This document shows, piece by piece, positions 1,916 through 14,668 of a stretch of DNA of 42,748 nt. Origin of the DNA: Candidatus Wildermuthbacteria bacterium (GTDB lineage: Bacteria > Patescibacteriota > Minisyncoccia > Minisyncoccales > UBA10102); contig JACOZJ010000003.1 of assembly GCA_016181405.1 (NCBI GenBank), positions 1 through 42,748 of the forward strand. Reading direction: 5' to 3'. Every line of letters begins with the position of its first letter. Within the stretch, counting starts at the first letter, position 1. Position numbers and translations under genes: made by a program. The notes beneath the pieces are model-generated. The model did no database searches. It saw nothing but the letters and a program-made list of their open reading frames with translations, and had not been told where the DNA came from.

Positions 1916-4900
1916 ATGGGACACTTTGTAAAAAATCGAAATAGCGCTTTCATTTTTGGTGTTTTGTTTGACGCGATTTACGCTACAGCACTCACTTTTG
2001 TTGTGCTGTTTTTTGGCATAGCTGGTTCGTTTCTTGCTTCGCCAGCCGTGACATACGCAACGGGGGGTGCAAGTGCTGAAATTGAAGTTGAGTTTACTTG
2101 TACTTCTGTTGTCGTAGAATCCACAAAAGATATTTCGAATGTGGTGCTTTTGTTCGCTGACGATACAACACAAAAGTTCGACGAACTTTCCGGCCATACC
2201 GGGACATTCACTGGCACCGGGGACAACGAAGGCAAAATTATTTCCGCTGTTTGGGTGAAATCGGGAAATAATGCAAGCGGTGATGGCCCAGGATACGGAG
2301 AAAAATTTGAGAGTGACGCGGCTTGCGATGGCGGGAATGATGATGAGGAGGAAGAAGAGTGCATGGAAGATCCTGAAGCCGATCTCGAAGGCGCTATAAC
2401 AGATGGGACAGGAAACGCTACCGTGACAAACAGCTCTGCAAAGTGCACGTACAAAGTGGGGCTTGCGGTCTACGAAATAGGAAAATGGAACAAGCAGACA
2501 TTATTTGATTCCCACTATCCTGTTATGGCGGGTCCTGAAGAAACGGTAAACCTCGCCGTAGATCTTCCCGAGTGCAACTATCAAATTGATCTTCTTTATG
2601 GGGATCTCATTGAAGACTTCCAGGACGGCTCCGTAGTGTACGGGGAGCGTTTGCTGGACGCAGCTAAGGTAACGGATCGTAAGGTCTGCGGCGAAGATGG
2701 CCTTGTTATCCGGGGGAGAAAATACGAAGACAAGAATGGAAATGGCCAGTACGAGGGAAGCACCGAGCCAAGCCTTACGGGATGGGAAATTACTCTCAAG
2801 GAAACAGACGGCACCGTACTTGAGACAATGGACACTGATGATGATGGCCTCTACGCTTTTTCGGGGCTTGCGGCAGGAACCTTTCTCATCTGCGAGGAAG
2901 ATCGAAGCGGATGGACGCAAACCCAACCGGCAACCCAGAGCAAATGCCATACGGCAACTCTTACTGACCACGACATCTGGCGAAACTTTGGGAACAAGCA
3001 AGAAAGCACCCCTCCGCCTCTCACGTATTCTATTTCTGGAATGAAATTCGAGGATGAAGATGGAGACGGGGTAAAAGATAGCAACGAACCGGGAGTTAGG
3101 AGCTGGAGTATTCACCTTGAGACATCGGATGGAAGCGATGATGTTCATGCTACAGACTACAACGGGAAATATAACTTTGGCGGTCTTGTTGCTGGACAGT
3201 ATACTCTTTGCGAATTCCAGCGGAACGGCTGGACCCAGACACTTCCAAACCCAAGCGTCAATAACGGCTGCTATTCGATCACCATAACCAATCAAAATAT
3301 TTCCGGAAAAGATTTCGGAAATAAAAGGGTAAGTGAAGAGGAAACAACGATCGTCGGCAAGAAGTACGAAGATCTCAATAAGAATGGACAAAGAGATGAT
3401 CAAGAGCCCGGTCTCCAGGGCTGGACAATTACCCTGACCTACCCAGATGATACTACCAAGAGTGATGTCACTGGTGAGGACGGGTTCTTTGAGTTCACAG
3501 ACAACATTGTCCCTGGAACCTACACTCTCTGTGAAACCATGCAAGACGGGTGGGATCAAACCCAACCAGCAACCACTTCCGGTTGCCATACCATCCATGT
3601 AGATGAGAGTGACGGCCAGATATGGAGAAACTTCGGGAATGTGGAAGAGGAGGAAGAAGAAGCAACAGCAACTATTGTGGCAACAAAAATTGTTTGCAAT
3701 GACGAATCTTTGCTTCCAAACTGGGGCGATGTGAAAGCGGATCCAAATATTACCGCTTCCACTGTAACAGATTTTCTTGCCGACAAAGGTGAAGATTGTT
3801 GGCTGGAGGAGGGGTGGGAATTTCAATGGACGCCGGAGACAACGTTCAACGATTTCCCAGAAAATCCAGGAGACAACACTGCCGCGGCAGGCAGCCCGTG
3901 GGTAACATTTGGTCCCACCGATGGGACAGGAGTTGCCAGCACTGTAGTTCCGCTCGCGAATGTAAATCCCAGAATCTGGCTTCGGGAGGTATGGAAAGAA
4001 GAGTATATTCCGTTTACCGGTTTGCATGATCCTGCGGAAGAATCAGACGACGTATCCGCAGAATTCTACTGTCATACGGATGGCATTTACTACGATAACC
4101 TTGATTTCGTTTCAAATCCCGAAGACGGGGGCACCTACTACTGTGTTGCTTTTAATGTTCTTGAGGAAGAAGAGCCGGAACCAGAGCCGAGTCCGACTCC
4201 CACCCCAACTCCGACGCCCACCCCTGAACCAACCCCGACCCCAACTCCAACACCAACACCAACGCCCGCGCCGGATTCGGGAGGAGGGGGTGGTGGCGGT
4301 GGCGGAATCTCAAGGGCTTCCGGATTTGTTGGAATTCCGGTGTTTGCAGCAACGCCAACGCCAACGCCGGGAGGAGTTACGGAGTGCTTCTATCTTAGAG
4401 ATTTTCTTCGTATTGATTGGGACAACGATCCGATTGAAGTTTTGAAGCTCCAATCGTTCCTCAATACATTTGAAAACATCCCTACTCCATTAACTGGCGT
4501 ATTTGACCAGGATACGTTTAACGCGGTTGTGATATTTCAGGAACGCTATTTCGACGATATTTTAGCGCCCTGGGGACACGACGCGGGGACAGGATTTGTT
4601 TACTTGACGACACGAAAGAAAATAAATGAGATTTATTGTGATAAGTCGTTTCCTCTTACGCCAGAGCAATTGAAGGAAATTGATTGGTTCCGGGCCTTCT
4701 TGGAGCAATTGAAAGCAGGAGACCCACCTTCTGGAGATCCACCTAATGGGGGAGAAATAGATCCGCCCGATCCAAGCGGAGTAGAAGCTACGCCGCTCCC
4801 GGAGGATCAGGATGAAGATTTAGATTCGCGCATTCGGGAGCAGGTTGGCCTTCTTGGGACAGGGGAAGATAGGAATGGTGGGGATAACTTTTTGGGAGCG

Positions 4901-5020
4901 CTTAAGTTTTCCTCTCCCGAGGAATGGAGAAGATTTCTTTTCTACCTACTTGGGATTGCGGGCCTCATGACCTTGTGGTGGCTTTTGGAGAGGCGCCGCG
5001 CAAGACGAGTTGCGCTATAA
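1916..5020 (+). CDS. Large secreted wall protein with three SdrD B-like repeats, Pro/Thr linker, peptidoglycan-binding-like domain and C-terminal TM
   Basis: Signal/TM N-terminus; three repeats (IRGRKYEDKNGNGQYEGSTEPSLTGWEITL / ISGMKFEDEDGDGVKDSNEPGVRSWSIHL / IVGKKYEDLNKNGQRDDQEPGLQGWTITL); PTPTPTPT linker and Gly stretch; ...LKLQSFLNTFENIPTPLTGVFDQDTFNAVVIFQERY... resembles PG_binding_1; C-terminal FLFYLLGIAGLMTLWWLLERRRARR. Confidence 0.85.
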   Translation: MGHFVKNRNSAFIFGVLFDAIYATALTFVVLFFGIAGSFLASPAVTYATGGASAEIEVEFTCTSVVVESTKDISNVVLLFADDTTQKFDELSGHTGTFTGTGDNEGKIISAVWVKSGNNASGDGPGYGEKFESDAACDGGNDDEEEEECMEDPEADLEGAITDGTGNATVTNSSAKCTYKVGLAVYEIGKWNKQTLFDSHYPVMAGPEETVNLAVDLPECNYQIDLLYGDLIEDFQDGSVVYGERLLDAAKVTDRKVCGEDGLVIRGRKYEDKNGNGQYEGSTEPSLTGWEITLKETDGTVLETMDTDDDGLYAFSGLAAGTFLICEEDRSGWTQTQPATQSKCHTATLTDHDIWRNFGNKQESTPPPLTYSISGMKFEDEDGDGVKDSNEPGVRSWSIHLETSDGSDDVHATDYNGKYNFGGLVAGQYTLCEFQRNGWTQTLPNPSVNNGCYSITITNQNISGKDFGNKRVSEEETTIVGKKYEDLNKNGQRDDQEPGLQGWTITLTYPDDTTKSDVTGEDGFFEFTDNIVPGTYTLCETMQDGWDQTQPATTSGCHTIHVDESDGQIWRNFGNVEEEEEEATATIVATKIVCNDESLLPNWGDVKADPNITASTVTDFLADKGEDCWLEEGWEFQWTPETTFNDFPENPGDNTAAAGSPWVTFGPTDGTGVASTVVPLANVNPRIWLREVWKEEYIPFTGLHDPAEESDDVSAEFYCHTDGIYYDNLDFVSNPEDGGTYYCVAFNVLEEEEPEPEPSPTPTPTPTPTPEPTPTPTPTPTPTPAPDSGGGGGGGGGISRASGFVGIPVFAATPTPTPGGVTECFYLRDFLRIDWDNDPIEVLKLQSFLNTFENIPTPLTGVFDQDTFNAVVIFQERYFDDILAPWGHDAGTGFVYLTTRKKINEIYCDKSFPLTPEQLKEIDWFRAFLEQLKAGDPPSGDPPNGGEIDPPDPSGVEATPLPEDQDEDLDSRIREQVGLLGTGEDRNGGDNFLGALKFSSPEEWRRFLFYLLGIAGLMTLWWLLERRRARRVAL

Positions 5021-5476: not shown

Positions 5477-7279
5477 ATGAAAAAGAAAATTATACTAGCT
5501 GCGATTGCGTTGGTGGCAGTTGCCGGAGGAGTGGCAGGATTGTCCGCGTTCGAAGCACACGTTATCAACGTAACCGCGAAGATCGAAAACGCTCTGCGTG
5601 TCCCAACCGAACCCATTGATTTTGGCACCGTGTTTCCACAAGAGGAACTCGACCGAACATTCGATGTGGCTTTGTCGCAATCTTTCCTGGACGAAAATCG
5701 AGTGGATGATGTGGAATACGCGATTCGCCAAAAGCCGAAGTGCGGAGTCACCACAGACAACGGGCAAACATTGGTTGGCCCAACTGGGACTGGCCATGTG
5801 AGTTTGGACTCTGAAGATCAAGTTGTTATTGATTGCGGTCCTGCTCCACGCGACTTGACGACAGGCGAAACCTGGGACGTGCTTCCTCTGCTTTGTCCTT
5901 ATCTCTCAAAGCATGAGATAACAGAGGATGGATCCGAAACAAACAACGATTCTGATGTGCCGGCATTTCATGAGCCATGGACATTCAGCAACCATCAAGT
6001 TGTATGGACAGAAGCACTCGGACGGCTTTCGAAGCTTGCCGGGGATACGCTGGATACCTGGAACCTCGACTTGAAAGTTCCATGCTTCGGCGGAAATTGC
6101 GCGCAGGACTGGGAGGCGTTTGTGACAGGAATCAACGCGAGCGCGACTCCTGCTCAATATGTTCAGCCGATCGCAGAAGAACACAAAGTGTTCGGATGTG
6201 ATTTGTGGATTGAGGTAAATGGAGTGAGCGTGGCAGTTCCTTGCGTTCCTGGCGACTTCACGGTGGTGAGTGACACCACGAATACGGTTGAAGGCAACGG
6301 AAATGCCGTGGCAGTTTCTTCTCCGCATCCAAGCTGGACGGCTTCGATTCCCGGAGCGACATGGATTTGGTCTGAAGATCCAGTAAGCACCGAAAACAAT
6401 CAAACGGAGACATTTGTCAAACAGTTCAATGTTTCCGGAACGAGTGTTTCGGCTGCGAGCCTGATGATCGCGACTGACAATACCTACAGCGTGGAAGTGA
6501 ACGGATCTGCGGTTTGCTCGTCTGCGGATGAAAATAATTTCCAACTCGGAACACAAGACGTGTGCCCGGTGACAAATCTGGTTGCTGGAGCAAACACTCT
6601 TGAAATCACCGTGAACAACATAGGAGTTGGAAGTTCAGCAAATCCTGCTGGATTGCTCTACAAACTGTCATACACGACTGCTTGCGGAACATTGGGTTGT
6701 GCTGAAAAAGCAGATGCAATGCTCGTGCTTGATCGGTCAGGAAGCGTTGGTGATAACCTGACTGATTTGAAAAATGCGGCACACGCTTTCGTAACCGCAT
6801 TAAGCCCAGCAACTGACGGTGCTCACTTGGGGCAAGTAAGTTTCTCAAGCAGCGCAACACTGGATGTCCACTTGACAGCCGATGGTTCTGTTGTGGATAC
6901 AGCAATTGATGCGTTAGTCAGTGCCGGTTTTACAAACCTTGAAGATGCACTTTTGCAGGCAACTGCGGAATTTGCAAATCCAGGTGACGGACATGACCGT
7001 GCGGATGCTGATTCTGCAGACTTTATCGTGTTGATAACCGATGGAGCTCCGACTGCGAGCAACGGGCCCGATACCCATGAGCAGGACGCGATTAACGCAG
7101 CAAACGCAGCAGACGCGGCCGGAATTACTATCTACGTAGTTGGTGTCGGAACTGATACTAGCACTGCTGATTTCTTGGAAAACAGTATAGCAACAAGTCC
7201 CGCTCATTACTTTGACGCGGCTGACTTTGATGATTTGCAAGCTATTCTTGAAAGTTTGACTACGTGCAACGGAGATTAG
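5477..7279 (+). CDS. SipW-dependent-type secreted protein with TasA-like N-terminal head and C-terminal von Willebrand factor A domain
   Basis: N-term MKKKIILAAIALVAVAGGVAGLSAFEAHVINVTAKIENAL; conserved head DFGTVFPQEEL...SFLDENRVDDVEYAIRQKPKC...CFGGNCAQDW...EHKVFGCDLWIEVNGVS; VWA MIDAS DRSGS...GFTNLEDAL...ITDGAP. Confidence 0.8.
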   Translation: MKKKIILAAIALVAVAGGVAGLSAFEAHVINVTAKIENALRVPTEPIDFGTVFPQEELDRTFDVALSQSFLDENRVDDVEYAIRQKPKCGVTTDNGQTLVGPTGTGHVSLDSEDQVVIDCGPAPRDLTTGETWDVLPLLCPYLSKHEITEDGSETNNDSDVPAFHEPWTFSNHQVVWTEALGRLSKLAGDTLDTWNLDLKVPCFGGNCAQDWEAFVTGINASATPAQYVQPIAEEHKVFGCDLWIEVNGVSVAVPCVPGDFTVVSDTTNTVEGNGNAVAVSSPHPSWTASIPGATWIWSEDPVSTENNQTETFVKQFNVSGTSVSAASLMIATDNTYSVEVNGSAVCSSADENNFQLGTQDVCPVTNLVAGANTLEITVNNIGVGSSANPAGLLYKLSYTTACGTLGCAEKADAMLVLDRSGSVGDNLTDLKNAAHAFVTALSPATDGAHLGQVSFSSSATLDVHLTADGSVVDTAIDALVSAGFTNLEDALLQATAEFANPGDGHDRADADSADFIVLITDGAPTASNGPDTHEQDAINAANAADAAGITIYVVGVGTDTSTADFLENSIATSPAHYFDAADFDDLQAILESLTTCNGD

Positions 7280-7280
7280 T

Positions 7281-7329
7281 TCTAGCTACACTCTGTCCCG
7301 TCATTCGACGGGATGGAGATGTGGCTAGA
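7281..7329 (+). other. Long imperfect hairpin after the VWA gene / in the leader of the next gene
   Basis: TCTAGCTAC...TCCCGTC-attc-GACGGGA...GTGGCTAGA; no T-tract follows, so it is not a canonical terminator. Confidence 0.5.
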
Positions 7330-7344
7330 ATATAGAAAATCTTG

Positions 7345-7440
7345 ATGGTTGGTCCGCCTCTTCGCTTGAGAGGAAACAGGGGAGCGGGGACGAGCCATAA
7401 AGGTTCGGACGCAATAAAAGGTCGAACGAAACTAAGTCGA
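7345..7440 (+). ncRNA. Candidate structured 5' leader (cis-regulatory RNA), copy 2
   Basis: CCTCT-tcgcttg-AGAGG hairpin and GTTCGGACGCAATAAAAGGTCGAACGAAACT (7403-7433), matching the copy 1 motif at nearly the same distance from the start codon. Confidence 0.35.
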
Positions 7441-7469
7441 GAAATAATAACGTACGTAATTAGGAAAAA

Positions 7470-9065
7470 ATGAAAAAGAAATTTGCTTTAACACTCGTTG
7501 CCTTTGTTGCGGTTGCTGCAGGTGTGGCAGGATTGTCCGCGTTCGAAGCGCATGTCATTAATGTAACAGCGCAGATTGAAAACGCGTTGCAGGTGCCAAC
7601 CGATTCCATTGATTTTGGTACAGTATTTCCACAGGAAGAATTGAGTCAGGAAGTATCTGTTTCTCTCTCAAGCTCTTTCTTGGATGAAAATCGCGTGGAT
7701 GACGTAGATTACTTTATTCGCCAGAAGCCGAAGTGCGCGGTAACAACAGATAACGGAACAGTATTGGTTGATCTTCCAACGGCTACCGGGCATATTGATC
7801 CTGAAACTGGAGAAGTTGATTGTGGAGAGGCTCCTGCTGGATTTGAGGAAGAAACTATGGATTGGGGAGTCCTTCCTTCGCTTTGTGAGTACATTTCAAA
7901 GCATCCGGATGGAAATCCAACGCCAAGTAATGATGGTTCCTTGAATTCATTCCACACTCCGTGGGTTGTGGGTAGCGGTTCGATTGATTGGACTGATACG
8001 CCGGGGCGACTTGCAAAATCAGAAAATGACACAGAAGATACTTGGACGATTGATTTGGCGGTGCCCTGCTTCGGCGGAAATTGCGCGCAGGATTGGTTGG
8101 ATTTTGTCCGTCGCGTATCGGGCGATGAAACCATGACGCAGGAGGAGGCAGATGCGTTTACGCGGCCGATCGCAGACGAGCATAAGATTTTCGGATGCGA
8201 TCTGTGGATTGAGGTAAATGGAGTGAGTGAAACGCCTGAACCAGGACCAGTGCGAGAAACAGTAGGAGCTGACCTTTCAAGCTATGTCGCGCCAGATCCA
8301 AGCCAATGTGATGTGACAGTGCACAGCGGTGAATCCATCGCGACTGCGGTTGCTGGTGCAAGTCAAAACAATACAGTCTGCGTAGAAGCTGGAACATACA
8401 ATGAAACTGTGCCTATTGAGATTGTAGGGTTGAGTCTTGTTGGAGCTAGTCCAGTTACCACCACGATTAACGGAGGCGTCATCATTAACGCAGACGGAGT
8501 AACAGTAACTGGATTCAAGGTTATTCCTGGAAACACGGAGGGCAGCGTTGCAGGGTTTTACTTGAAAGAAGCGGCTGATAATGCAAGGATTTCCTTCAAT
8601 GACATTGATGGTACGGGTATTGTGGTTGGAGATCCTCGTGGAATCTTGAATGTGATTGGTACCGATATAGGTGGTGTACTGATTGATAATAACTTCATCC
8701 ACGATCTTACGACTGGTATCTACACCAATCCACATACAGGTAGTTTGTGGACCATCAGCAACAATGATATTGATGACAACCTTGCTGGTATTGGGCAGTG
8801 GAACGGCGCGAACGTGCTGAACAATGAGTTTGAGCATACAGCGGCGGGCTCTGAAGCAATTGGTGTGGATAACGCTTGGGATGCGAATGGCGGCGTAGCG
8901 AACTTCAACAATTTCCTGAACGGCACCATGATAAACCAATACGGCGTTATTGCAGGAACGATAAATGCAGAGAATAACTTCTTTAGCACTGGTGCAGTGG
9001 TCGCAGTTAATGGTTCGAGTATTGACGCGAGTCCAGAGGAGGGAAGTGCGTTTCCGCATAACTAG
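7470..9065 (+). CDS. SipW-dependent-type secreted protein with TasA-like N-terminal head and C-terminal right-handed beta-helix
   Basis: Same head as 5477 (GLSAFEAHVINVTAQIENAL...DFGTVFPQEEL...CFGGNCAQDW...FGCDLWIEVNGVS). C-terminus VCVEAGTYNETVPIEIVGLSLVGASP...ARISFNDIDGTGIVV...VLIDNNFIHDLTTGIYTN has a NosD/parallel beta-helix pattern. Confidence 0.8.
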   Translation: MKKKFALTLVAFVAVAAGVAGLSAFEAHVINVTAQIENALQVPTDSIDFGTVFPQEELSQEVSVSLSSSFLDENRVDDVDYFIRQKPKCAVTTDNGTVLVDLPTATGHIDPETGEVDCGEAPAGFEEETMDWGVLPSLCEYISKHPDGNPTPSNDGSLNSFHTPWVVGSGSIDWTDTPGRLAKSENDTEDTWTIDLAVPCFGGNCAQDWLDFVRRVSGDETMTQEEADAFTRPIADEHKIFGCDLWIEVNGVSETPEPGPVRETVGADLSSYVAPDPSQCDVTVHSGESIATAVAGASQNNTVCVEAGTYNETVPIEIVGLSLVGASPVTTTINGGVIINADGVTVTGFKVIPGNTEGSVAGFYLKEAADNARISFNDIDGTGIVVGDPRGILNVIGTDIGGVLIDNNFIHDLTTGIYTNPHTGSLWTISNNDIDDNLAGIGQWNGANVLNNEFEHTAAGSEAIGVDNAWDANGGVANFNNFLNGTMINQYGVIAGTINAENNFFSTGAVVAVNGSSIDASPEEGSAFPHN

Positions 9066-9086
9066 AACTGATTGATTTCTGATTGA

Positions 9087-9120
9087 TCTTGCCGCGCCGC
9101 CCGCGGGCGGCGCGGCAAGA
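9087..9120. repeat. Perfect 34-nt GC-rich palindrome
   Basis: TCTTGCCGCGCCGCCCG|CGGGCGGCGCGGCAAGA is self-complementary over its full length; no T-tract on either side. Confidence 0.9.
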
Positions 9121-9161
9121 AAACAAGAAAGCAAGGTCAAACGCAAAGTAAAAAATGAAAA

Positions 9162-9569
9162 ATGGCTAAAGTAAAGATAGTTCTTTTAGGGCTTGGAGTG
9201 GTTGCGGCAATTTTTGCGATTGTGCAGTTTATAAACGCCGCAAAGTACGAGATGGTGGTGAACGTGGTCGAAGGAGAAAATGTGCTGGGATTAAACCCAA
9301 CCACGGAGCGGCTCGATTTTGGCGATTTGTCGAGAAACAACGGAATCGCGCGCCAGGTAACCATTGAGAATGGCGGAGGCATGGATATTTTTGTTGCCGC
9401 GTTCAAATTTGGTGAGTTGGCAAGTTTGGTGAAACTCGACCGGAATTTCTTTGTGCTAAAGCCGGGTGAAGAAGCGCAAATTTCTTTGGAGGTTTCTATT
9501 CCGCCTTCCGCTGAAACAAAAAAATACGATGGCCGAATTTGGATATTTCGATTACCGAAGCCGATATAA
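9162..9569 (+). CDS. Membrane-anchored Ig-like accessory protein of the SipW locus
   Basis: N-terminal TM then LNPTTERLDFGDLSRNNGIARQVTIENGGGMDIFVAAFKFGEL...FVLKPGEEAQISLEVSIPPSAETKKYDGRIWI. Stop overlaps the start of the signal peptidase (TAATG). Confidence 0.7.
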   Translation: MAKVKIVLLGLGVVAAIFAIVQFINAAKYEMVVNVVEGENVLGLNPTTERLDFGDLSRNNGIARQVTIENGGGMDIFVAAFKFGELASLVKLDRNFFVLKPGEEAQISLEVSIPPSAETKKYDGRIWIFRLPKPI

Positions 9570-10036
9570 TGGAGAATTTTGAACAACATGAAGAGCAAAA
9601 GCCAATAAAGAAAAAAGGATCAGTGCTGAAAAGTCTTATCGGGTGGATTGTATATGTGGCATTACTTGTGGGATTGGTTGTGGGCACGCCAAAGGCATTA
9701 AGCTATATTTTGAAAAGTGAATATCCCATGGCGGCCATCACTTCAGGATCAATGTGGCCAACGCTGAAAACTGGAGATATGGTGTTTATCCAGGGAATAC
9801 AAAGCAGAAATGAATTTGAGGTGGGGGACATCGTGGTGTACAAAAATCCCCAGGGGTTTACCATTCACCGCGTGGAGGAAAAACAGGAGAATGCGGTGAT
9901 TACCAAGGGAGACGCCAACAACACATTGGATACGCCGGTGAAATACGAAGATATTATAGGCAAGACTGTGGAATTTCAGGGAAAACCTTTTAAAATTCCC
10001 TTGCTGGGGAACATAAGCATTATGCTCAACAAATAA
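9569..10036 (+). CDS. Signal peptidase I, SipW/ER-type (Ser/His)
   Basis: N-term TM; AAITSGSMWPTLKTGDMVFIQG...EFEVGDIVVYKNPQGFTIHRVEEKQENAVITKGDANN: Ser in SGSM, His in TIHRV where P-type enzymes have Lys. Confidence 0.88.
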   Translation: MENFEQHEEQKPIKKKGSVLKSLIGWIVYVALLVGLVVGTPKALSYILKSEYPMAAITSGSMWPTLKTGDMVFIQGIQSRNEFEVGDIVVYKNPQGFTIHRVEEKQENAVITKGDANNTLDTPVKYEDIIGKTVEFQGKPFKIPLLGNISIMLNK

Positions 10037-10042
10037 ATCCTC

Positions 10043-12751
10043 ATGTACAGTTACGGAGAAACAATAGTCCCCGTGCGCGTACGCCACAGAATACATGTGG
10101 AGGATTTTGGATATGGGTATGGATATAGAAAGTGGACCCTCGCGTCTCGTCGAACCCATAATGTTTTGCCTCGACTCGGCAAGGCGGGCCTGCCTCGCCG
10201 ATTCAAGGCGGGCAGAGTGTTGCATGGAATGCTTACGCTCTTGCTCGTGGGAATTTTATCCGTAGGCAGTTCCGGGCTTGTGCTTCTTGCGGCTGCTTTT
10301 GAATCTCACATAGTGAACGTAACCGCCGCGATATCGCAGATTGATCCCGCAGTGCTTACGTCGCCAGGAGATATTGGTTTTGACAATCCCGATGGAGGCA
10401 CGAATTTGACTGCGCCCTTGGAAGTCGTGATGACTGATACAGACTCCGATGCGACCCACATTTTTTATACCTATGGTTCAGGCCTTGATCCTTTGAGTGT
10501 GCCAGAACCTGTGTGCGGCCAGGCCGATCCGAACGGAGGAGGTGGGGAAATTGCAACCGAGATCATCTCCTTAGCCTTGACCGGCGATACGGTTATTCGG
10601 GCAATCGCGTGCGATGGCGCAGATTCCTCGGCCCATCACAGCTTTATTAATACGAAAATTTACGACTTTACCGACCTTGCCTGCGTGCCACAAAGCGTTG
10701 AGTTTCCCGCGAATCTCGCGGTGCTTGCCGCAGGCCCCGGCAATTCTTCCAACGGAGACATCTTTGCCTCCGCGAATGTGACCATCAACGGAGACGTGCG
10801 CAGTAATGACGATATTAACGCCAATGGCGGCGGAGCAAACCGCACTATTAACGGAAACGCCCTCGCCGGTGATACCATTGAAACCGCCAACTTTACTATT
10901 TCCGGAACTGTTGCTACCGACACGCCAGCAACCACTCTGCCAGACATCAACATTCCTTTTTGGCAAGCAAGAGCCGCTGAAGGTGGCACGGTAAGCGGGA
11001 GCATTATTATTCCTGGTACTGCGGCTCCTTCTATAGATTTTGGGCCAACGGAAATTGAAGGAAACTTGGAAATCGGCACCAACAACGTGATTAACGTGAA
11101 AGGTCCGATATATGTAAAGCAGAATTTGGTTATTAGCTCAAATGTTACCCTCAATCAGGATCCTGCGTTTGGCGATCAGTTTACAGCAATTATTGTTGAC
11201 GGCACCATAGATATTTCTTCAAATGTGGCTTTTAACGGCACAGGATCTATTGGAACATTTCTGTTGGTTTCCACTTCTGGGCCAAAAGTCGGGGACAACG
11301 CGGCAATTGAAGCAAATTCAAACAATTCAGACTTGGGAGATGTGGTGTTGTTTGCTTCGGCGGGAGATGTGCACATGAATTCCAACCGTAACCTGCTTGC
11401 CATTTTCGCGACTATCGGCACTTCGGCAAGTAACCCGGCCATTGATTTGGATTCTAACGTGACAGTTAACTACCGGGAACTGCCCGGAACTATTTCTTGC
11501 GGTCCGGTGTTCACGCCGCTCGATCAAGTGCTTATCAATGAATTTTTGCCAAATCCCACAGGCGCAGACAACGCGGCCATGCCCGACGGCGAGTTTGTGG
11601 AATTGTACAACGGGTCAGGTTCTCCCGTGGACGTGAATGGTTGGGTGCTATACGACAACTTTGTGCCGGTGGGGTCGGCAACAAATAAAACGTGGACTTC
11701 AAGCGCTGATTTTAATGCAGGAGGCACAGCCAGCGGCACTACTGTTTCTGCAAACAGCGTGCAGATGTCTGCCGGAGAAGCTTTGGGAACATTTGAAAAC
11801 TTTTTGGATGCGGGCGAAGGCAACAAGGGAGATTGGCAGAATTTGACTTGGGGTGAAACTCTTGGAGCTACGAGTGATATCTGCGTTGAGGTTGCCACTT
11901 CTAACGACGGAGCAGCATATTCGGATTATTCTGCGCAAGATTGCACGATCCCTTTTAGCTTGACTGGAATTTCAGACAGCCGCTTTATCAAGTGGCGCTC
12001 CATGCATAGCCGGAGCGATATTTCCCATAGCGCCAATCTTAATGAGCTGACCATTAGCTATAATCGCTTTAATTATAATGAGCTCGTGATTACGCCAGAC
12101 CGTACTTTGGGAGGGGATACGGTTATTCCGGCCGGCGGATTGCTTGTGGTGTACCGCGATGGCGACATCGATTTTGAGCTGACCAACGATGCGGACACGG
12201 TGAAACTATACGACGATCACGTTTGGCTGGGCGGTACGCTTGTCGATTCTCACGCGTATGACTATGGCACCGCCGCGCCGAACGACAAGTCGTTTGCCCG
12301 GATTCCCGACGGAAGCGTAAACTGGGTTGATCCTGACCCAACACCGGGTGAACCTAACGATGAATTTGTTGATCCAAGCACGGTTCCGAGCGAAGCGATT
12401 ACATTTGAGTCTGAACCAGTCGCGGAAGAAGAACTTATTGAGGATGAACAGTCTGTGGCGGTTCAGGAGGAATCGACAGTTCCAGCAGAAACTGTTGAGG
12501 AAACCGACACTCCCGCAGCCGCAGAAGAAGCGCCGGAGATAACGGATGAGTCGTCTACGCCAGAAGCTATGGCGAGCGAACCGCCGGCGACAACGGAAGA
12601 ACAACCAGCGACAACTGAAGAATCTCCGGCAACAGTCGAAGGATCACCTGCGGTAACTGAAGAACCTGTGATAACTGAAGAACCGGCGGCAGTACCGGAG
12701 CCGTCTTCTCCGCCCGAGGCGGATTCGGCGAGCAAGGAGTCAGGTTTATGA
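10043..12751 (+). CDS. Large secreted protein with SipW-type N-terminal motif, polymer-forming-like central repeats, lamin-tail domain and acidic Thr/Glu/Pro tail
   Basis: AAFESHIVNVTAAI follows the TM segment; chitobiase-like PGDIGFDNPDGGT...IFYTYG...DTVIRAIACDG; GDVRSNDDINANGG repeats; VLINEFLPNPTGADNAAMPDGEFVELYNGSGSPVDVNGWVL (lamin tail); TEEQPATTEESPATVEGSPAVTEEP tail. Confidence 0.75.
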   Translation: MYSYGETIVPVRVRHRIHVEDFGYGYGYRKWTLASRRTHNVLPRLGKAGLPRRFKAGRVLHGMLTLLLVGILSVGSSGLVLLAAAFESHIVNVTAAISQIDPAVLTSPGDIGFDNPDGGTNLTAPLEVVMTDTDSDATHIFYTYGSGLDPLSVPEPVCGQADPNGGGGEIATEIISLALTGDTVIRAIACDGADSSAHHSFINTKIYDFTDLACVPQSVEFPANLAVLAAGPGNSSNGDIFASANVTINGDVRSNDDINANGGGANRTINGNALAGDTIETANFTISGTVATDTPATTLPDINIPFWQARAAEGGTVSGSIIIPGTAAPSIDFGPTEIEGNLEIGTNNVINVKGPIYVKQNLVISSNVTLNQDPAFGDQFTAIIVDGTIDISSNVAFNGTGSIGTFLLVSTSGPKVGDNAAIEANSNNSDLGDVVLFASAGDVHMNSNRNLLAIFATIGTSASNPAIDLDSNVTVNYRELPGTISCGPVFTPLDQVLINEFLPNPTGADNAAMPDGEFVELYNGSGSPVDVNGWVLYDNFVPVGSATNKTWTSSADFNAGGTASGTTVSANSVQMSAGEALGTFENFLDAGEGNKGDWQNLTWGETLGATSDICVEVATSNDGAAYSDYSAQDCTIPFSLTGISDSRFIKWRSMHSRSDISHSANLNELTISYNRFNYNELVITPDRTLGGDTVIPAGGLLVVYRDGDIDFELTNDADTVKLYDDHVWLGGTLVDSHAYDYGTAAPNDKSFARIPDGSVNWVDPDPTPGEPNDEFVDPSTVPSEAITFESEPVAEEELIEDEQSVAVQEESTVPAETVEETDTPAAAEEAPEITDESSTPEAMASEPPATTEEQPATTEESPATVEGSPAVTEEPVITEEPAAVPEPSSPPEADSASKESGL
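10168..10213 (+). repeat. GC-rich palindromic element, in-frame within the 10043 gene
   Basis: GCCTCGACTCGGCAAGGCGGGCCTGCCTCGCCGATTCAAGGCGGGC; core CGGCAAGGCGGG/CCTGCCTCGCCG is a near-perfect palindrome. Confidence 0.6.
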
Positions 12752-13836
12752 AGAATTTTTTCAGGAAAAAGCAGTTTTTTGGAATATCCGTGAATGTTGC
12801 CGTGATAGTGTTTGGGCTTGCACTTTTCGTTTCGCTGGGAGTAAGCGCGCACGGGAATGTGCATATAAACGACGCTCTTTCGGTTTCGCCTTCGCAACTT
12901 TCCTATGGCGCGGTATTCCCCGAAGAAGTATTGCTCCAGAATGTTCTGATTACGTTGAGCACCTCATTTCTGCGAAACAACAAGCTTGACAACGTGGAGT
13001 ACAGCATAAAACAAAAGAGCAAGCCCCGCGATCCCAAAGACACTTCGTACTGCCAGAATTATCCAAATGATTTGACGCGCTGTTATCCCACGCTTTGTCC
13101 GTACCTTTCCAAAGAACCGGATGGCAATCCGGGCAACGATACGGGAGTTGCCGCGTTTCATGACCCAACTGCGTCTTCATCAATCGCTGTTGGACGTTTG
13201 GCGAAATCAGATAACGATCTTGAAGATCCGTGGGTCATTGATCTTCATGTGCCGTGTTTCGAGGGGCAATGCGCCCAAGACAATGTTGTGCCGCAGGAAT
13301 ACGAAGTGAATCCGGCGTTGGAAGGAGAGGAGTTCGGATGCGATCTTCAGGTGGTGGTGAATAAAATCAGTTTTTCCCATAGAGAACGGGAAGGCACGAT
13401 TGGTTTTTGGAAGCATTGGAACAAGCATAAAACGTACACTCAAGCACAGATTAATGGCTGGCTTGGCGCGATTGACGCAGCTTCGGGCTGGGTTTTGGCA
13501 GAAGGCGGATATAGCGTGGATACCACCGGAATGGTGAATTTGATAAACGATTCAAAGTCATGCAATGGGGTTTCTCGCGCCTGCGCCAAGAAAAAGTTTC
13601 TCGCGCAATGCCTTGCAACGCGCCTCAACGTGGAATCGGGAAGAAAGCTGCTTACATATAATTATTCGGTGAATAGCAGCCAGCGCAACTATCTTGGCTT
13701 GACTAATCCCGACGCGCTTGCAGATATTATTTCCGCCATTGAAAGCAAGTTGCCTGATAACGGAATAAATCCAACTCGCGTACAATTCCTATTGATGAAG
13801 AATCTGTGCAATAAAATTAACAATGCAGGCTCGTAG
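12748..13836 (+). CDS. Paralogue of the TasA-like head family with a C-terminal GFWKHW-type module
   Basis: Head: LSYGAVFPEEVLLQNVLITLSTSFLRNNKLDNVEYSIKQKSK...LCPYLSKEPDGNPGNDTGVAAFHDP...VPCFEGQCAQDN...FGCDLQVVVNKIS. Then GTIGFWKHWNKHKTYTQAQINGWLGAI. Start overlaps the previous stop (ATGA). Confidence 0.75.
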   Translation: MKNFFRKKQFFGISVNVAVIVFGLALFVSLGVSAHGNVHINDALSVSPSQLSYGAVFPEEVLLQNVLITLSTSFLRNNKLDNVEYSIKQKSKPRDPKDTSYCQNYPNDLTRCYPTLCPYLSKEPDGNPGNDTGVAAFHDPTASSSIAVGRLAKSDNDLEDPWVIDLHVPCFEGQCAQDNVVPQEYEVNPALEGEEFGCDLQVVVNKISFSHREREGTIGFWKHWNKHKTYTQAQINGWLGAIDAASGWVLAEGGYSVDTTGMVNLINDSKSCNGVSRACAKKKFLAQCLATRLNVESGRKLLTYNYSVNSSQRNYLGLTNPDALADIISAIESKLPDNGINPTRVQFLLMKNLCNKINNAGS

Positions 13837-13882: not shown

Positions 13883-14668
13883 ATGAAAAAAATTTTACTT
13901 ATCGTACCTACCCTTTTGGTGTTTGGGCTTGCTTTAGCTATTGTGAGTGCTTCAGCGCCTGCAAACGCGCAGGAATCCGTCGGGGTCGTTCAGGATGAAG
14001 AAGCTGTTGTGGAAGCGGCAGGCGGAGAAGATGAGTTAACCGCGGAAGAACGGCAGGCGATGCTTGCGGAAATTACCACCCAGCTCGAAGAAGTTGAGCG
14101 CGAGGCGCTGCGCTTATCTTTGTTGGTAATGAGGTTGGAGCTTGAAGAGCAGGCATTGGCGTTGGAGCAGCAGTTGCAGCAGGCATTAACACAGGGAGGA
14201 ACCGGTGTTGCAGCAGCTATGCCAGTACCGGGTTCCAATGTGCCAGAGATGGTTGTCGAGGAAACGGCGGTTGCAGAAGAGGCAGGTCCGGCACAGTTCA
14301 GCGAAGTCCCAGCCGAGCAGGCTGATTTGGGCGTAGAGGAGAGTGTGAACGCATTTGCGGCTGAAGAAGAAGTTTCCGCCGACGCAAATGCTTTGGCGGG
14401 CAGGCAGGGTGAAGAAGAGGAGGAGGGAAAAGGTTTTCTTGCCGGGTTCGGGCCTCTCTCGAATTTGGGAGCGCCGGAAGTCGCGGCTCTTGCAATCCTT
14501 GTTTTTCTGGTGGCCTTCACTTTGTTGCGGCGCCTGCGGCGTGGCCGCACGGTGCGCCCCAGCTCTCCGCAGAATATCCTACCAGCTTCACAGCATCTAC
14601 CTCAATCTCCGCAGGGTATGCTGCAGGAGGGTCGTGAAGATCTGAAAGAAAAGATTGCCTGGGAATAA
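13883..14668 (+). CDS. Secreted low-complexity protein with coiled-coil segment and C-terminal TM
   Basis: Signal peptide KILLIVPTLLVFGLALAIVSASAPANAQ; ELTAEERQAMLAEITTQLEEVEREALRLSLLVMRLELEEQALALEQQLQQ; C-term VAALAILVFLVAFTLLRRLRRGR. Confidence 0.7.
   Translation: MKKILLIVPTLLVFGLALAIVSASAPANAQESVGVVQDEEAVVEAAGGEDELTAEERQAMLAEITTQLEEVEREALRLSLLVMRLELEEQALALEQQLQQALTQGGTGVAAAMPVPGSNVPEMVVEETAVAEEAGPAQFSEVPAEQADLGVEESVNAFAAEEEVSADANALAGRQGEEEEEGKGFLAGFGPLSNLGAPEVAALAILVFLVAFTLLRRLRRGRTVRPSSPQNILPASQHLPQSPQGMLQEGREDLKEKIAWE

Follow-up and report, generated by a model that had tools for sequence, protein, structure and literature searches.

The window analysed here is the whole stretch of 42,748 nucleotides, with which a contig of 264 kb begins; the genome measures 729 kb and is 99.6% complete. 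Three open reading frames on its forward strand encode proteins with a common N-terminal head, as the original prediction had proposed, and their coordinates were confirmed. Head protein 1 (5477..7279; 600 aa) consists of a SipW-like signal, a AFEAHVINVTAKI segment, the head (residues ~24-252), a beta-sandwich spacer that matches no family and a C-terminal VWA domain. Head protein 2 (7470..9065; 531 aa) has the same signal and segment, a head at residues ~24-254 and a tail that is probably a right-handed beta-helix. The downstream head protein (12748..13836; 362 aa) has a different signal, lacks the AFEAH segment, contains the shortest head and ends in a GFWKHW-type tail. The heads of 5477 and 7470 are 60% identical over 260 aa (E 1e-86), and the head of 12748 is 34-37% identical to either (about E 1e-30). 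Four cysteines (in LCxY, PCF, GxCxQ and FGCDL) are invariant in a head alignment of 7 rows, and the head count across all 729 kb of the genome is three.

Three further genes lie between the second and the last head, all on the forward strand. The first (9162..9569), which the original prediction had missed, encodes a small protein in which one Ig/ASH-like domain follows an N-terminal membrane segment, and it proved to be a constant component of the cluster, lying upstream of the peptidase. The second (9569..10036) encodes a signal peptidase of the Ser/His (ER/archaeal/SipW) type; its longest open reading frame begins at TTG 9539, and the start is probably ATG 9569, which overlaps the stop of the 9162 frame (TAATG). 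The peptidase scored 88.4 bits against TIGR02228 (archaeal/ER type), above the curated cut-off of 51.85, and 50.1 bits against the SipW equivalog NF046067, far under the curated cut-off of 190. Ser and His (not Lys) are invariant among 22 aligned relatives (SGSMWP...IHR), so that the Ser/His assignment made from the window by itself was borne out. The third gene (10043..12751) encodes a large non-head protein with an AFESHIVNVTA segment, a lamin-tail domain and a P/E/T-rich C-terminus.

Upstream of the cluster, the surface protein encoded at 1916-5020 combines SdrD_B/SpaA modules with a weak peptidoglycan-binding match and ends in a membrane segment; downstream, 13883-14668 encodes an Ala/Glu-rich protein with a signal, a C-terminal membrane segment and no clear family, and a run of ribosomal-protein, EF-G, EF-Tu and SecY genes occupies 18300-40000. 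A perfect 34-bp palindrome (9087-9120; 17-nt arms, no loop) separates the beta-helix and Ig-like genes; its 14-bp core is found nowhere else in the genome and no T run follows it. A regulatory RNA in the region was considered and rejected in the absence of any Rfam match, and promoter and terminator scans of the region remained at shuffle level. Ribosomal protein uL30, present in 13 of 14 control genomes, is absent from this 729-kb genome. A missing uL30 and a small genome are both characteristic of the candidate phyla radiation (CPR); combined with the presence of the only named relative of the cluster in a metagenome-assembled genome of the Parcubacteria group (locus L005), these two features make an episymbiotic life likely for the lineage.

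To determine how widely the cluster occurs, a head profile was searched over 387 genomes of the class and 381 genomes of the phylum (the source genome being in both samples), and the neighbourhoods of the head loci were annotated with profiles of four components. The head was found in 20/387 genomes of the class and 7/381 of the phylum, with the source genome counted in both. The order head(s), 9162-like gene, peptidase was kept in 22 of the 23 clusters that could be judged, the remaining loci except L079 being cut by contig ends; these 22 clusters come from 21 genomes. Between one and four heads precede the 9162-like gene in each, a large protein bearing the signal of the heads usually comes after the peptidase, and a further head-like protein lies downstream in 13 of the 22. 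The exception, L079 (5661-10020), is divergent: it contains a weak head, an Ig-like protein and a protein with a YAFEGH signal, has no adjacent peptidase, and its genome yielded no peptidase in the TIGR02228 survey. In one genome (G479) the cluster is present twice (L065 and L066), on different contigs and with near-identical peptidases. Another (G557) begins a contig with a peptidase and a GFWKTH protein with an AFEAH signal (L093, 123-1831), which is a truncated cluster not counted by the head search.

The peptidases of these clusters form one clade (22 sequences; support 100/99), apart from the peptidases associated with TasA; their signature is SGSMWP...IHR, against mostly SGSMEP...THR in the TasA-linked enzymes. 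TIGR02228 was matched above its cut-off in 51/387 genomes of the class, namely 15/20 genomes with a head and 36/367 others (Fisher's exact test, p = 8e-11), and in all 15 head genomes that have such a peptidase it sits inside the cluster. Contig breaks explain four of the five head genomes without one. Ordinary signal peptidase I (TIGR02227) was matched in 20/20 head genomes, over the cut-off in 18; in the remaining two the sole TIGR02227 match listed is the cluster's own peptidase or a partial one. The proposal that the peptidase is dedicated to the system is supported by the gene order, the single clade, the co-occurrence and the accompanying TIGR02227 matches, and heads were not usually found far from a Ser/His peptidase.

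A segment with the pattern A-[F/Y]-E-[A/S]-H-[V/I]-[I/V]-N-V-T-A-x-I directly follows the hydrophobic signal. It is present in 48/48 complete heads encoded upstream of the peptidase versus 0/13 downstream heads, and this is the unconditioned comparison; the overall motif count of 70 is conditioned on the motif's own pattern. The motif also occurs on 16 non-head proteins that are otherwise unrelated. Conservation is concentrated in it: pairs of motif-bearing heads are 87% identical across the motif, as against 37% for the signal and 47% for the remainder of the head. A degenerate DNA pattern (≤3 mismatches) searched genome-wide returned exactly three copies, all on the forward strand within the operon: as AFEAHVINVTA in head protein 1 (5546..5577) and head protein 2 (7539..7570) and as AFESHIVNVTA in the large non-head protein (10295..10326). 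The 10043 protein carries the special signal and early mature segment, whereas head 12748 does not, and the former is possibly a fibre-starting or capping subunit.

Cleavage probably occurs just before the Ala of AFEAH. A cut there would leave an aromatic residue (F/Y) at P2' in each of the 48 complete upstream heads. Such a residue at P2' contributes to TasA being refractory to E. coli LepB yet served by SipW, and when TasA was tested with LepB the residues that counted were those from P3 to P4' (PMC10269814). The donor strand of TasA is formed by the first residues of the mature protein (28-38, including F29; PMC9674648), and TapA is an Ig-fold starter that shares the donor strand of TasA and whose gene overlaps sipW (PMC10151520). 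The position of the motif in the heads corresponds to that of the TasA donor strand, and by this analogy the AFEAH segment may itself be a donor strand.

The C-terminal tails are interchangeable, as had been proposed from the three proteins of the window: across the heads they are VWA, SpaA/prealbumin, beta-helix, RTX or absent, and domains are inserted internally as well. No tail of ≥60 residues is present in 31/68 heads; the other 37 comprise 13 VWA tails, about five SpaA/prealbumin tails and single RTX, DUF11, fn3, pectinesterase-like and other tails. The VWA domain of 5477 matches PF00092 (E 2e-21), with the MIDAS residues DxSGS, T and D readable in the sequence. The tail of 7470 has a weak NCBIfam match (E 0.004), no Pfam match of its own and no PDB sequence match, and the beta-helix reading comes from its sequence pattern and from a related tail that matches pectinesterase (E 9e-4). 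The GFWKHW region of 12748 matches no family. In at least five proteins the head is interrupted by 157-195 inserted residues (L053 9496-10722, L054 8887-10107, L071 3915-5183, L072 11521-12675 and L076 5541-6728); two of these insertions match DUF642 and one DUF1349, and they form a site of display additional to the C-terminal one. None of the three heads of the window has a C-terminal membrane segment or an LPxTG sortase signal, as originally noted, and upstream heads elsewhere have no such anchor. Among the 13 downstream heads, four end in a membrane segment (L053, L054, L056 and L076), together with LPKTG/LPRTG in L053 and L056, which suggests that the downstream member can be the cell-bound end.

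The head is an undescribed family that none of our sequence, profile or fold searches placed with TasA, and the original prediction of a TasA-like head was not supported. No Pfam or NCBIfam model matches it; PF12389 (TasA/camelysin) has no match anywhere in the genome at E 0.001 and matches 0/49 heads in Pfam searches; a PDB sequence search with the head found no relative; and a comparison of the head profile with TasA proteins from the class was at noise level, with 32/60 shuffles scoring as well. AlphaFold2 (AF2) models were computed for the head from 8 sequences only (the window and L005). The head is predicted to be an Ig-like beta sandwich (pLDDT 81-84): the model of the 7470 head is a beta-rich sandwich with pLDDT 83.6 and pTM 0.77, in which residues 5-15, containing the motif, are the least confident stretch, and the shorter head of 12748 was modelled with pLDDT 81.2. 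Foldseek searches of these models against the PDB, which had been suggested as a check against TasA, returned no significant match, and TasA was outside the top 50. The nearest neighbours of the shorter head include cohesins, FimG, MSP domains and AggA, none of them significant; FimG (E 0.07) and AggA (E 0.3) are both donor-strand pilins. Membership of TasA was rejected on the combined Pfam, PDB sequence, profile-profile and fold searches. The 9162 family is the only component with TasA-like profile similarity, and this is weak: its mature part matched the TasA profile with prob 69% and E 4e-5, the N-terminal part being beaten by 0/60 shuffles, and the match could be explained by generic Ig resemblance. 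The N-terminus of the head against the 9162 family profile was borderline (1/60 shuffles).

The cluster resembles the Bacillus tapA-sipW-tasA and sipW-calY operons in having a dedicated Ser/His peptidase beside its few substrates, an Ala and an aromatic residue after the cut (here predicted), an Ig-type partner gene that overlaps that of the peptidase (by 1 nt in this cluster) and a segment common to major and accessory proteins. It differs from them in its head, which is unrelated to TasA by sequence and fold search and bears interchangeable C-terminal and internal modules, in its segment (AFEAHVINVTA) and in a peptidase far below the SipW equivalog cut-off. Genuine TasA clusters also occur in the class: PF12389 was found in 32/387 genomes, 30 of which have an over-cut-off TIGR02228 peptidase (L081-L120). 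The TasA-cluster loci that we read contain TasA-like genes, then the peptidase, then a large protein whose signal is of the same type (with a P/E-rich end in several loci) and lastly a further protein with an ordinary signal. Their layout and their archaeal/ER-type peptidase parallel those of the head clusters, but their segment is of the AYFSDTETS type and their peptidases lie elsewhere in the tree. None of the 20 head genomes contains TasA; mutual exclusion of the two was considered, for which this count is suggestive and non-significant (p = 0.39). The literature that we searched contained no paper linking SipW to the CPR. Ig-like sandwich subunits with an N-terminal extension are likewise found in chaperone-usher pili and other donor-strand pili (FimG, AggA; archaeal bundling pili), and FimG and AggA are weak fold neighbours of the head with non-significant Foldseek E-values; neither an usher nor a periplasmic chaperone was seen in the cluster. 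VWA, SpaA and SdrD_B modules occur as tails, as in MSCRAMM/SpaA-type modular proteins, but the common head and the special signal are foreign to those families and the window lacks LPxTG.

We consider it highly probable that the locus serves the dedicated, SipW-type export of modular surface proteins. For what happens outside the membrane, the anatomy is best read as assembly into donor-strand fibres, a reading that we hold at about an even chance. The Ser/His peptidase would cleave its neighbours, the products of 5477, 7470 and 10043, probably before the Ala of AFEAH, and the P2' aromatic residue left by this cut would be poorly handled by ordinary bacterial signal peptidase I. The freed AFEAHVINVTAxI segment would most likely insert as a donor strand into the Ig-like sandwich of the next head, and the heads would thereby build up a fibre or surface layer beyond the membrane, from which the VWA and beta-helix tails would hang as binding modules. 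The 9162 protein, the 10043 protein and head 12748 could be base, starting or ending subunits. Taken as a whole, from peptidase through assembly to tails as binding modules, we judge this donor-strand display reading just as likely to be right as wrong; the lack of a TasA match to the head by sequence or fold and the lack of a peptidase at L079 count against it.

Conservation of the motif might instead reflect nothing more than recognition by the peptidase, with SipW-type export delivering heads that stay monomeric or loosely held as adhesins. The adhesin-like tails on many heads would suit this, as would the presence of the motif on unrelated proteins, which is where a recognition signal would be expected; conservation, however, reaches ~13-17 residues past the likely cut, beyond the P3 to P4' range (PMC10269814), and the 31 of 68 heads without a tail are better suited to a structural subunit, and we regard adhesins of this kind as rather unlikely. 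Less probable still is a strict TasA fibre operon in which the head would be a TasA/camelysin that has diverged very far. The peptidase type and the layout shared with genuine TasA clusters of the class speak for such descent, together with the 69% profile probability of the 9162 family and the borderline link from the head N-terminus to that family, but the head itself meets TasA at noise (32/60 shuffles as good), with no PF12389 or PDB sequence match and TasA outside the top 50 of Foldseek.

An S-layer-like or covalently anchored coat, as a sheet or fixed to the wall through an anchored downstream head, draws on the LPKTG/LPRTG and membrane segment of the L053 and L056 downstream heads and on the membrane segments of L054 and L076. 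Nine of the 13 downstream heads, including 12748, have no such anchor and upstream heads have none, and we think a coat very unlikely. That these are ordinary secreted proteins beside a housekeeping signal peptidase deserves almost no credence: a single genome would have left chance adjacency possible, but the order is conserved in 22 loci with one peptidase clade and an operon-confined motif, and signal peptidase I (TIGR02227) matches are present besides in 20/20 genomes, 18 of them over the cut-off.

Little is known of the means by which CPR bacteria recognise hosts and attach to them; the main lead tested so far is type IV pili (PMC12206443). For the assembly described here, host contact is a reasonable guess and a conjecture. 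We put forward only tentatively, as a doubtful possibility, that a second SipW-type fibre system has arisen independently here, in which an undescribed head family, a private peptidase subfamily and a membrane-anchored Ig-like base would make donor-strand fibres with exchangeable binding modules, by which CPR bacteria would hold their hosts. The cluster is a compact and recognisable candidate surface apparatus whose named parts can be searched for in any CPR genome, and it suggests that the SipW logic, a private peptidase paired with substrates that share an early mature segment, serves more than one kind of subunit.
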